In this document: positions 59,281-64,000 of the stretch, piece after piece
How the letters are laid out: each line of letters opens with the position of its first letter
How positions within the stretch are numbered: position 1 is the stretch's first letter
NCBI RefSeq assembly: GCF_024171725.1
Contig: NZ_JAMTCG010000002.1
Coordinates: 248,001-312,000, forward strand
Direction of reading: 5' to 3'
Length of the DNA stretch: 64,000 nucleotides
Source of the DNA: Williamsia serinedens
GTDB taxonomy: Bacteria; Actinomycetota; Actinomycetes; Mycobacteriales; Mycobacteriaceae
Notes under the pieces: model-generated
What the model was told of the DNA's origin: nothing
The model's database searches: none
Seen by the model: the letters and a program-made list of their open reading frames with translations, nothing else
Translations under genes and position numbers: made by a program

Positions 59281-59317
59281 GTATGTGTGTACAGTTGCGG
59301 CTCGGGGGAGGTGCATC

Positions 59318-60835
59318 GTGAGCGACAGTCTGATCGAGGACTACGCCGAGTTGCACGCGGTGCTGGATCGGATCGTAGAGCGCACCTCGGACGCGTGCTC
59401 GGAGCTTGAGGTCGCGGAGTTGGCGATCATCCATGAGCACGCGGTGCGAAAGATGGGTTCGATTGGGCTGCAGCGCATTCTGGACGTCTCCGATCGTGAG
59501 GCGTATCGGGCGGTGCAGTGCGTGAAGCTCGACGAGTTCGTCGGGCAACGCTTGCGGATCACCAATCCGCGCAAACGGCTGCGGCAGGTGACGCAGTTGA
59601 CCGAGATGCACGCGATGACCGGGGAGAAGCTGCCGCCGCACTGCCCGGAGACCGCGGATGCGATGGCCGACGGCGACCTCACGCACGAGCACGTCGACGC
59701 GGTGCTGGACGTGATGGCCATGGTGCCGTCGGCGACACCACCGGAGATGCGGGACCTGGCTGAGGAACAGCTCGCGGAAATCGCCGGGCACCACTCGCCG
59801 CGCGAGATCACCCGCGCCGGCGCCCGGATCGTGTCGCACCTCGACCCCGACGGGGACCTTCCCGACGAGCGGGACCGCGCCCGCAACCGCAGCCTGTCCT
59901 TGGGCGCGCAGGACACCCTCGGCATGTCGAAACTGATGAGCACCCTCGACCCCACCACCCGAGCGTTGTTCGAGGTGCTGCTCGCGGCCTGGGCGAAACC
60001 AGGGATGAACAATCCCGACGACGACCAGTCACCCGAAGGTGGCGCCGACGATGAGGGCATCGACGCCGAACAGGTGAAAGCGGCCGCAGACCGTGACTGC
60101 CGCACGCAGGCCCAACGCAATCACGACGCGTTCCACGCGCTGCTCTGCGCGGCAGCCGACGGCGGACTCTACGGCGCCTCACACCGCGGACTACCGCCGC
60201 ACATCATCGTCTCCATCACCGAAGCCCAACTCCGCGAGCGCGCCGGGATCGGCCACACCACCACCGGCACCGACCTGCCGATGTCGGAGATCGTAAAGCT
60301 CGCGGCGCGGGCGCAGATGTATCTGGCGGTGTTCGACGACCACACCGGCGAACCGCTCTACTTCGGGCGCGCCAAGCGGCTCGCGTCGCAGTCGCAGCGG
60401 TTCGTGAAATTCGCCGAGTACGGCGGCTGCTCCAAACCCGGCTGCCCGCGCCCGTTCTCCCACACCGAAGCCCACCACGCCGAACAAGACTGGGCCGACG
60501 GCGGCAAGACTGACATCACCGACCTCGCACCCGCCTGCGGACCCCACAACCGGGCCGTGCACGACGGACCCGGCGGCTGGCGAACCGAGAAGATCCCCGA
60601 CGGACCCGACCGCGGGAAGTACGGCTGGATCGCCAACGGCACCACCGACCCACCCAGAACCAACCACCTGCATCGCCCCGACCGGATCCTCGACGACACT
60701 GCCCCACCGCAGCCGGAATGGTCGGAGATCGAGCACGCACTGGAACTGATCCTCGCCGAACACACCTCGGCACCCGAACCACCCGACCCGGTGATCATCC
60801 GCGTCATCGACTACCGCGCACCGATCTCGGGGTGA
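59318..60835 (+). CDS. DUF222/HNH endonuclease, 13E12-repeat family
   Basis: The 505-residue protein has the helical DUF222 region (about 20-310) and a C-terminal HNH nuclease domain (about 365-440). The nuclease motif has zinc cysteines CSKPGCPRP, the catalytic pair in THTEAHHAEQDW-like form (TEAHHAEQDWADGG), the asparagine in LAPACGPHNRAVH, and a conserved GWRTEKIPDG tail. GGGGGAGG precedes the GTG at 59318. 13E12 proteins occur in many copies in Mycobacteriales, and some are carried by prophages. The LexA-like box upstream predicts SOS control. It converges with the glycosylase-like gene. Confidence 0.9.
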   Translation: MSDSLIEDYAELHAVLDRIVERTSDACSELEVAELAIIHEHAVRKMGSIGLQRILDVSDREAYRAVQCVKLDEFVGQRLRITNPRKRLRQVTQLTEMHAMTGEKLPPHCPETADAMADGDLTHEHVDAVLDVMAMVPSATPPEMRDLAEEQLAEIAGHHSPREITRAGARIVSHLDPDGDLPDERDRARNRSLSLGAQDTLGMSKLMSTLDPTTRALFEVLLAAWAKPGMNNPDDDQSPEGGADDEGIDAEQVKAAADRDCRTQAQRNHDAFHALLCAAADGGLYGASHRGLPPHIIVSITEAQLRERAGIGHTTTGTDLPMSEIVKLAARAQMYLAVFDDHTGEPLYFGRAKRLASQSQRFVKFAEYGGCSKPGCPRPFSHTEAHHAEQDWADGGKTDITDLAPACGPHNRAVHDGPGGWRTEKIPDGPDRGKYGWIANGTTDPPRTNHLHRPDRILDDTAPPQPEWSEIEHALELILAEHTSAPEPPDPVIIRVIDYRAPISG

Positions 60836-60854: not shown

Positions 60855-61922
60855 TCACTCCTCCGCGAGGAGCTCGCGCGTTCTCTCGATCTCCGTCGCC
60901 AATTCGCGCTGGCGAGAACGGGAGACGGGGCGCATAAGCTGGGTCGTCACCTGATCACCGTCGGTGACAGACCACGTCCCGACGACCCGCCCGTCGACGA
61001 GCACCGTGCCCGGGACTCGACCGTTCGGGGTCTGCAGGGCGGCGAACACGTCGTCGTCGATGACACGGCGCCGGTCGGCGTTCGCGGTCACGACGTGGTC
61101 GTAGGGCGCGAGGAGCCGCACGGGGAGGTCGCCGTCGCCGTCACGGCTCAGTCCGTCGAGGTCGAACAGCTCCGTCCCGTCCGGCCCGGGGACGCGTTCG
61201 ACCTCCCAGTCGCGGTCCATCGCGTCGAGCAGCGGCCGCAGTCGGGTCAGCCCCGACCACGTCTGGATCGCCGCCACGCTGGCAGGCCCGAATCCCCGGA
61301 GGTACAGCCGGATCAGGTCCTTGCGGGCCTCGTCCCCGGTGACCGCCGGCTCCCTCGCGCCCACCCAGTCGTCGAGGAGTGCATACGTCACCGCGCCCGA
61401 GGATCGCCAGAGACCGCGCGGCGGCACCTGCACCAGCGGCAGCGTCGCCCGGGCGACGGCAGTCACCGTCGACGCCGTCTCGTTCGGAAAGCGCTGCACC
61501 AGTTCGGCTCCCAGCTCCCTCACGCCGACACTGCGGCCGGCGAGCAGCTCGTGCGCGGCCGCCGTGACCGCCTCCGGCGCCGCGTTCACCAGACGCCGGG
61601 CATGGATGCGCAGCTCCGCCGCGATGGCCGGCTGGGCCAGCTCCCGAACCCACCGCGCATCGTCGGCGTCCATGAGGAACACGGTGCTGCGCAACGACGC
61701 CATCCGGACGACGGTGCGATCGAGCAGGAGCCCGTTCAACTCCGCGGGGTCGAAACCCTCCACCCGCGACGCCAGCCCGAAGAACGCCGCCTGCGGGTCC
61801 TGCGACTGCAACCCGACACACCGGTCGAGCACCTCGATGACGTCCTCGTCGACCCGGGACGCGAGGTGTTGGCGTTCGAGGAGCGTTGCCGTCCACGCGC
61901 GCTCGGACAGTGCGGCCGGCAC
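60855..61922 (-). CDS. Winged-helix DNA-binding protein, AlkZ/YcaQ-like DNA glycosylase candidate
   Basis: The 355-residue protein belongs to the HTH_42 (PF06224) family, which includes the interstrand-crosslink glycosylases AlkZ and YcaQ. The catalytic Q-x-Q motif lies at 39-41 in VGLQSQDPQAA, almost the same distance from the start as the QxQ of AlkZ (Gln37/Gln39). Winged-helix segments (LRSTVFLMDADDARW; VPPRGLWRSSGAVTYALL) and the C-terminal LLAPYDHVVTANADRR region follow. The GTG at 61922 stands four bases after the JetC-like stop, so both genes are one transcript. Glycosylase activity is inferred; many members are uncharacterised. Confidence 0.75.
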   Translation of the reverse strand: MPAALSERAWTATLLERQHLASRVDEDVIEVLDRCVGLQSQDPQAAFFGLASRVEGFDPAELNGLLLDRTVVRMASLRSTVFLMDADDARWVRELAQPAIAAELRIHARRLVNAAPEAVTAAAHELLAGRSVGVRELGAELVQRFPNETASTVTAVARATLPLVQVPPRGLWRSSGAVTYALLDDWVGAREPAVTGDEARKDLIRLYLRGFGPASVAAIQTWSGLTRLRPLLDAMDRDWEVERVPGPDGTELFDLDGLSRDGDGDLPVRLLAPYDHVVTANADRRRVIDDDVFAALQTPNGRVPGTVLVDGRVVGTWSVTDGDQVTTQLMRPVSRSRQRELATEIERTRELLAEE

Positions 61923-61926
61923 GGGC

Positions 61927-64000
61927 TCAGCCGCCCGCGGCCGTTCGGGCCTCGGCGATCTCGCCGAACGTCGCCGACCGGGCATCCGATCGGGCCGCAC
62001 CGTCGGGTCCCGTCCGCTTGTCGACGAGGATCACCTGCCCGATGAACGGTTCGACGATGCCGGCCATGCGGATCGGCGCGGCGATGACGAGTTGGAACCC
62101 GAACTGCTCGAACGCCCGCAGCGACTGCGAGCTGAACGTCTCGTCGGACTTGGAGAACGCCTCGTCGAGCATGAGCGGCGCGAAGCCCGGCCGATGGTCC
62201 TCCGGTGTGCCCAGCGAGAAGCTCAGCGCCGCGGCGAGACAGAAGGCGACGAGCTTCTCCTGCTCACCACCGGAGTTGGTGGCGGTGTTGCGGTAGGTGT
62301 GCACCGGCGGCGCGTCCGGCCCGTCGTCCCGCGCCATCTCCTTGCCGTAGAAGAAGAAGCTCGCGCGGACGTCGAGCACGTTGTCACACCACCGACGACC
62401 CTCGGCGTCGGTCGCCGTCAACCGCGTCACCAGATTCTTGATCCGGTAGAACTGCCGTGCGAGCACCGCCGAGTCGCCACCGCGCGCGGCCGGGGCGTCG
62501 GCGATCATCGCGTCGACGATCCGGCCGAACTCGGCCGCCTCGTCGGTCGGAGTGTGGTGCACCGCGATCTGCAGGTAGGTGCCGGTGTTGAAGTCGACCC
62601 GCTGTAGACCCGCGTTGACCTCCGCGATGCCGCGGCGGATGTGCTTGACGGTGTCGTTGATCTCCTTGTACAGGTTCGACACCGAGTGCGAGATGTCGGT
62701 GGTGATCAGCCGTCGGAAGCGTTCCCGGGTCGAGGCGAGCCCGTGTTCCACCAACCCGGCGTGCATCGCGACCAGATCCGGTGCGCCCGCGATGTCGGCG
62801 GTCAGATCGGTTCCGGCCGAGGGCCACTCGCGCAGGAAGGCCTCGGCGGCGCGCACGATGCGGTGTTCGGCGTTGTCCCGCTCGGCGTCGGCCTCGGCCT
62901 GCACCGACTCCAACGCGTTGCGGAGATCTGAGCGCACCTCCCCGTACGTGTCGAGCGACAGCGTCTTGCCGGTCTGCTCCAGTGTGCGGTCGAGGACGGA
63001 CGTCAGGTACTCGCGATCGTCGTCGGTGAGGGCGTCGTTGTCGTCGCTGCTCTCCAGTTCGGCCAGCCACCGGTCCCAGTCGGTGCCGATGTGGCGGAGC
63101 TGGTCGTTGATCGCGCCGACGCGTGCCACGGCCTCGCGCCAGTCGGCGCGGGCCACCTCCACCTGCTCCTCCAACTCGGCGAGGTCGACGCGGTTCTCGC
63201 GGACGGCGTCGATCCGACGGCTCAGCTCGTCGGCATCGCGCTGGGCCGACCACCAGTTGAGCTCGGCCCACGACGAATACCCGGCGAGTGTCTCCGCCGC
63301 CTTCGCCCGATCACGGTTCTCGTCCAACAGCTCTCGCACGTCGGACGACGCCTGGCGTGCCTCCTCCAGACGGGCCGCGAGACCGACCAGCGCCTGCTGC
63401 AGGGCGGCGCGCTTGCCGTCGGTGTTCGTGCCGAGGATCCAGTGTGTCCGGTCGTCGACGCGACGGCGGTCGTCCTTGCGGAACCGGTCTCGGCCCGCCT
63501 TCACCAGGCCGGCGGGGGTGACGGCGATGTCGTGGTCGTCGAGGTCCACCGGCGAGTCGACGCAGACGTGGTCGGCGGTGCGCGCGATGACGCCGGTCAG
63601 CCAGTCCGCCGCGGGATGCGAACGGTCGACGACGACCAAGGCCGCCAGCGTCCCGGGTGTGGGCACCGTCGGGTCGACGTCGGTCCGGTACGTCCGGTAC
63701 TCCAACACACCGCCGAGGTCGGTGCGGTCGACGAAGGCCGTCACCTGGGCGCGGTGCTCATGCGGCACGAGGAGCGTGAGGCCGAGTCCGCGGAGGACGC
63801 GTTCGGCGGCACCGGCCCATCGGTCACGGTGCTCGTCCGCGACCTCCATCAACTCCGCGGCGTAGGGAAGATCGTGCGGTGACAGCCCGGTCCCGGCCGC
63901 GATGGCGTCCCGCTGCGCGAGCGCACCGGCCGGCAGCAGCGACCGTCGGGCGGTGAGCGTGGTGAGTTCGTCGACGACGGCGTCGTGCTCACGGCGCGCG
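61927..64000 (-). CDS. JetC/MukB-like SMC ATPase of a Wadjet-type system (partial)
   Basis: The frame is open to the window edge, showing the last 690 residues. The C-terminal half-ATPase has the ABC signature NSGGEQEKL (62279-62253 region), Walker B PLMLDEAFS (near 62166) and the D-loop/H-loop stretch SDETFSSQSLRAFEQFGFQLVIAAP in part. Upstream is a long charged helical, coiled-coil region (about 62600-63500) with a Trp-rich patch. This layout is that of COG4913 proteins, i.e. JetC of Wadjet (EptC in M. smegmatis), which with JetA, JetB and the nuclease JetD recognises and cuts circular plasmids. The N-terminal Walker A half lies outside. JetD is not the next gene here. Confidence 0.75.
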   Translation of the reverse strand, partial: ARREHDAVVDELTTLTARRSLLPAGALAQRDAIAAGTGLSPHDLPYAAELMEVADEHRDRWAGAAERVLRGLGLTLLVPHEHRAQVTAFVDRTDLGGVLEYRTYRTDVDPTVPTPGTLAALVVVDRSHPAADWLTGVIARTADHVCVDSPVDLDDHDIAVTPAGLVKAGRDRFRKDDRRRVDDRTHWILGTNTDGKRAALQQALVGLAARLEEARQASSDVRELLDENRDRAKAAETLAGYSSWAELNWWSAQRDADELSRRIDAVRENRVDLAELEEQVEVARADWREAVARVGAINDQLRHIGTDWDRWLAELESSDDNDALTDDDREYLTSVLDRTLEQTGKTLSLDTYGEVRSDLRNALESVQAEADAERDNAEHRIVRAAEAFLREWPSAGTDLTADIAGAPDLVAMHAGLVEHGLASTRERFRRLITTDISHSVSNLYKEINDTVKHIRRGIAEVNAGLQRVDFNTGTYLQIAVHHTPTDEAAEFGRIVDAMIADAPAARGGDSAVLARQFYRIKNLVTRLTATDAEGRRWCDNVLDVRASFFFYGKEMARDDGPDAPPVHTYRNTATNSGGEQEKLVAFCLAAALSFSLGTPEDHRPGFAPLMLDEAFSKSDETFSSQSLRAFEQFGFQLVIAAPIRMAGIVEPFIGQVILVDKRTGPDGAARSDARSATFGEIAEARTAAGG

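Follow-up and report, generated by a model that had tools for sequence, protein, structure and literature searches.

Wadjet type I systems (JetABCD) cleave closed-circular plasmids, and a gene cluster at one end of the Williamsia serinedens stretch analysed here (64,000 nucleotides, referred to as the window) raises the question of why a DNA-repair gene should stand in the position of the nuclease JetD, directly behind the ATPase gene jetC. A first-pass annotation of the window proposed that jetD might lie elsewhere in the operon, or that a glycosylase had been joined to the SMC machine. The jetC-alk gene pair is real and conserved, and a glycosylase taking the place of the nuclease is unlikely; judged from sequence comparisons across relatives, the DNA-repair gene is probably a mere neighbour.

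Both genes lie on the minus strand. The predicted product of alk, an intact gene (window 60855..61922, −), is a 355-amino-acid AlkZ-like HTH_42 protein (PF06224, E = 6.7e-73) with a GTG start and a QSQ motif, and the 3′ part of jetC fills the remainder of the window (61927..64000, −). The jetC stop codon occupies 61929-61927 (−) and the next in-frame GTG 61922-61920 (−), leaving a spacer of 4 nt between jetC stop and alk start (61923..61926, −), exactly as the first-pass annotation had placed the end of jetC and the gene after it. Reading rightward past the window end completed jetC (G000:C2:309927-313337, −; 1136 aa, GTG start) and added jetB (DUF4194; C2:313334-314113; PADLOC JetB1, 235 bits), jetA (DUF3375; C2:314110 to about 315627; PADLOC JetA1, 793 bits), msrA (PF01625; C2:315725-316417) and, past msrA, SOD. 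The transcription order in this minus-strand operon is msrA-jetA-jetB-jetC-alk, with overlapping ends at jetA-jetB and at jetB-jetC and jetC and alk 4 bases apart. Gene spacing suggests that msrA, jetABC, and alk are probably co-transcribed, with alk as the final gene of the predicted operon. A 516-amino-acid open reading frame convergent with alk (window 59285-60835, +) looks DUF222/HNH-like by eye.

The SMC ATPase that had been recognized from its SGGEQEK and MLDEAF motifs is indeed a JetC. It scored 1067 bits against PADLOC JetC1, its residues 25-1108 (of 1136) align with JetC chains of known structure (E = 3.5e-52), and in a 15-sequence alignment that includes the W. serinedens protein the Walker A glycine-lysine core, the SGGEQEK signature, and LMLDEAF were all invariant. 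JetA (DUF3375), JetB (DUF4194), and JetC (SMC ATPase) are encoded by intact genes in the order, and with the overlapping ends, of Wadjet type I systems (JetABCD/MksBEFG/EptABCD), from which the Williamsia cluster and genome differ in having no JetD nuclease. W. serinedens thus carries what are predicted to be three of the four genes of the plasmid-destroying Wadjet machine, with the nuclease gene missing. Values of dN/dS from seven pairs (jetC, 0.018 to 0.091; jetA, 0.026 to 0.116; jetB, 0.023 to 0.144), which are rough since some dS values exceed 1, indicate that the nuclease-less JetABC is under strong purifying selection.

PF09983 and PF11795 represent the two halves of JetD, and neither had a match anywhere in the W. 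serinedens genome. Where the first-pass annotation had pointed to the sequence on the right for jetA, jetB, and jetD, the first two were found and jetD was absent, and of the profiles it had named for the pair, PF06224 matched and PF09983 did not. The PF09983 (JetD_C) probe was run on 56 chosen genomes and detected its target in 9 of them, so the probe works; it found nothing in any of the 20 genomes with a jetC-alk pair or in the 9 Tsukamurella genomes. A jetD elsewhere in the genome is therefore rejected, and with it the proposal that the gene lies elsewhere in the operon. JetD calls at the compared loci come from a custom profile built from 11 proteins and apply to the fetched stretch only. 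Pfam searches of 26 downstream proteins, a set distinct from the cousins with 43 to 46% JetC identity, gave 17 with JetD_C and 18 with DUF3322.

A full SMC-kleisin-KITE core with intact ATPase motifs and no JetD/MksG places the cluster among nuclease-less Wadjet-group complexes, which are an already published kind: MukBEF and several other members lack MksG/JetD according to a portion of PMC7617805, and a passage in PMC10586767 gives JetD loss as the likely origin of Pseudomonas aeruginosa MksBEF, which contributes to chromosome organisation. The Williamsia complex shares with MukBEF and MksBEF the kleisin-KITE-SMC core without MksG/JetD, but its closest JetD-bearing kin are actinobacterial Wadjet systems (43 to 46% JetC identity), and a chromosomal role for it is hypothetical.

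The gene in JetD's position encodes the HTH_42 protein with a Q-x-Q motif that the first reading had described. The PF06224 match spans nearly the entire Alk protein, and a profile of the alk family matched AlkZ (5UUJ; E = 9.9e-14) with the Alk QSQ aligned on the AlkZ QAQ. Both glutamines (Q39 and Q41) were invariant in 23 of 23 aligned sequences, while most rows carried Ser between them and a few carried Ala. Alk thus resembles the AlkZ-like (AZL) glycosylases in its PF06224 domain and in a Gln-x-Gln aligned to that of AlkZ. It differs from them in adjoining jetC in the Williamsia clade and in its mostly serine middle residue, AZL glycosylases being defined by a (Q/H)-aliphatic-Q motif in the relevant part of PMC9040887. 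A literature search of partial coverage returned no title on a Jet-AlkZ pairing. A paper on glycosylases in phage defence (PMC11078745) is said to mention Wadjet.

The pairing itself was traced by a homologue search of 151 genomes of the family, with wider stretches read for all 29 matches of at least 61% identity, 12 others, and a few more. JetC of at least 73% identity occurred in 20 of the 151 genomes, belonging to Williamsia (three groups), Jongsikchunia, and Gordonia jinhuaensis, and in all 20 jetC adjoins alk at a spacing of −4 to +16 nt by the plausible starts listed. All eight Williamsia-genus genomes examined have JetC. The conservation of the pair, which the first-pass annotation had proposed to check, is therefore confirmed within this clade. 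Among 76 named loci, 17 had alk beside jetC, 12 had JetD, and 47 had neither on the fetched stretch; all 17 alk-bearing loci are places already counted in the 20. No HTH_42 gene was detected on the fetched stretches of 107 alk-less jetC loci (about 100 distinct places, at least 7 of them fetched twice), in a scan whose queries were the alk profile, which fails to find two of the three other HTH_42 members in the W. serinedens genome, and two other HTH_42 proteins from that genome, the Lhr-like type not being a query. In the clade SOD lies upstream at all 20 loci, msrA was detected at 6, and at least one downstream marker was found at 16. A jetC-alk junction unbroken in 20 loci, despite the low count for msrA and the missing downstream markers at 4 loci, makes a functional tie possible and counts against a purely positional reading. 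Two database records with unexpected titles surfaced alongside: L199 (titled Kitasatospora arboriphila) carries jetABC-alk in a form close to the Williamsia muralis locus and is probably mislabelled, and L230 (titled Acidobacteriaceae bacterium) holds a partial JetC, 58% identical to that of W. serinedens, from a misbinned contig or a transfer.

What the locus looks like without jetABC can be seen in Gordonia. In the 151 genomes searched, alk orthologues with 56 to 62% identity occurred in eight Gordonia genomes with no jetC within a 1.5-kb flank; these eight were read widely, out of nine Gordonia genomes listed with alk, the ninth (G197, 47% identity) being left out. All eight stretches had SOD, msrA, alk, and at least one gene from downstream of the Williamsia locus, none had a jetABC match, and msrA stood directly beside alk, 5 to 66 nt apart by matched ends. 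Because the same locus in Gordonia has alk without jetABC, alk is a resident of the msrA host locus. Constraint on alk is similar with and without jetABC, with no clear shift (dN/dS of 0.086 to 0.300 in seven pairs versus 0.139 to 0.360 in four Gordonia pairs; rough values, some with dS above 1). Williamsia-type JetC was found in none of 59 Gordonia genomes, the best match having 34% identity, and distant JetC proteins (34% identity or less) were present in 52 of the 59. In Tsukamurella, 14 loci carry jetABC (61 to 65% JetC identity) without SOD, msrA, or alk matches alongside; at one of them a single downstream marker is matched weakly (39%). This genus thus holds the sister JetD-less jetABC at another locus, without alk. 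The simpler history would be that jetABC was inserted on the Williamsia stem, and a loss in Gordonia is possible; the outgroup of the alk tree is not clean, so that tree does not separate gain from loss.

The JetD-less JetC proteins do not share a single origin in the tree. In trees of 79 and 42 rows, the alk-linked JetC proteins formed one clade, sister to JetD-less Tsukamurella, and the next group consisted of JetD-bearing Amycolatopsis, Nocardia, Actinoplanes, and others (43 to 46% identity) together with JetD-less Phytoactinopolyspora, Actinocatenispora, and Virgisporangium. A single clade of all JetD-less JetC proteins (23 of 39 rows) was rejected by the AU test (p = 1.6e-7), as it was without the mycobacterial type (19 rows, p = 6.7e-4). 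The test used an LG+G4 quick tree after removal of L229 and L231 (partial) and L213 (duplicate), with the group set by JetD label, though the 42-row tree had been seen beforehand. Rejection of one JetD-less clade implies more than one loss, or regain, of JetD.

A motif near the N-terminus of JetB, F..[VI]F, which was picked by eye after seeing the sequences, was present in 11 of 11 JetD-bearing cousins (L213 and L215 being identical) and in 0 of 38 JetD-less relatives (8 from the cousins' own group, 10 from Tsukamurella, and 20 from the Williamsia clade). It is absent from JetD-bearing L249, L128-L131, and L035, nor does it set the mycobacterial type apart. According to a passage in a review (PMC10586767), the JetB N-terminus carries an IFDR motif that JetD contacts; rendered as [ILVMF][FYW][DE][RK], this pattern was found in none of 31 JetD-bearing and none of 113 other loci (JetB not being found in 7 of the 113) and so is uninformative here. 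F..[VI]F is a candidate JetB docking motif, putatively lost in JetD-less lineages.

The idea that every JetD-less jetABC shares one alternative partner was rejected, as downstream neighbours are of many kinds. The nearest genes scanned, some on the opposite strand, were transposase, PIF1-like helicase, HsdM, TetR, STAS, CdiI_2, DUF222, GCS2-like, luciferase-like, GNAT, isocitrate dehydrogenase, DUF5313, MaoC-like, PIG-L, and Exo_endo_phos genes, or genes without a Pfam match. In two JetD-less clusters jetABC is followed first by the Mutator-family transposase (L048:9973-11274) and by the HsdM methylase (L120:9679-11241), respectively, and such neighbours fit a mobile module. In Tsukamurella, the gene just downstream of jetC was kept in 12 loci (8 distinct places, L113, L115, L116, L118, L119, L203, L204, and L209) and belongs to the PIG-L deacetylase family in the two scanned. 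At another locus (L036:9817-10791, +), where JetD was not found, a gene of 325 aa without a Pfam match overlaps the end of jetC and is a candidate alternative partner.

One group of mycobacterial loci resembles the Williamsia arrangement. At eight (L233, L235, L239, L240, L247, L254, L258, and L262), a single gene family follows JetD-less jetABC just downstream of jetC, with spacings from −9 to +11 nt and a single −70 when the longest frame is taken; three of the eight were scanned with Pfam and matched Exo_endo_phos, which we take to be exonuclease III/XthA. An Rv0428c-like GNAT gene (Pfam on three) lies immediately before jetA in five of the eight and 2 to 4 kb upstream in the other three. 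In six Mycobacterium-group genomes that lack a strong JetC match, GNAT stands directly before xthA in five and has no match in the sixth; these six were picked because no JetC matched at E = 1e-130, and jetABC elsewhere in them is possible. Together, GNAT-[jetABC]-xthA and msrA-[jetABC]-alk point to two lineages in which JetD-less jetABC sits within a host gene pair.

Several explanations can be set against these observations. JetD could have been lost and the AlkZ-like glycosylase become the effector, making abasic sites in the extruded loop of circular DNA captured by JetABC; the slot of alk and its spacing resemble those of jetD, and the pair is kept in every clade genome while JetD is absent. 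This is unlikely, since alk occupies this locus in all eight Gordonia stretches with jetABC missing, constraint on alk shows no clear shift, the JetD-less jetABC of Tsukamurella and others have no adjoining HTH_42 gene on the fetched stretch, and other JetD-less clusters have neighbours of many kinds. The same facts leave the earlier idea of a glycosylase joined to the SMC machine unsupported. A broader version, in which JetABC has twice been placed before a base-excision gene (AlkZ-like here, exonuclease III-like at the mycobacterial loci) by joint work, capturing circular or damaged DNA that the repair enzyme then opens in place of JetD, is more improbable still; the two sites ahead of base-excision genes are the only hint of coupling and are provisionally treated as chance.

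The explanation we consider probable is that a nuclease-less, MukBEF-like jetABC module of Wadjet type sits inside the host msrA-alk pair as a loop extruder without cleavage, with alk independent of it. The module would have been inserted on the Williamsia stem between msrA and alk, and JetABC would still bind and extrude DNA with ATP but could not cut it. Alk would repair alkylated bases independently of JetABC, and the probable co-transcription of its gene would follow from having jetABC in front of it. Being unable to cut, JetABC would act as an accessory condensin or would silence circular DNA without cleavage, and two rivals correspond to these halves of the favoured reading on the role of JetABC. 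That JetABC serves Williamsia and Tsukamurella as a housekeeping condensin, comparable to P. aeruginosa MksBEF and with alk an unrelated neighbour, can be advanced tentatively: JetC is present throughout the Williamsia genomes examined, the clade keeps it at one locus with SOD upstream in every case, purifying selection is strong, and MksBEF itself is a likely JetD-loss derivative with a chromosome role in the text consulted (PMC10586767). Relatives, however, occupy varied chromosomal settings, with a transposase, HsdM, or CdiI_2 alongside in one case each, and so look like a mobile module. That appearance, and an ancestry shared with JetD-bearing systems (43 to 46% JetC identity), would suit a JetABC that still restricts plasmids through silencing or an unlinked host nuclease, a somewhat more doubtful proposal given that JetB lacks the N-terminal motif of the JetD-bearing cousins and no alternative nuclease is consistently linked.

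The empty-site comparison thus explains a striking SMC-ATPase/glycosylase gene pair by the position of jetABC. JetD-bearing cousins, several JetD-less lineages, and a candidate lost JetB motif form a natural series for probing a non-cutting Wadjet core.
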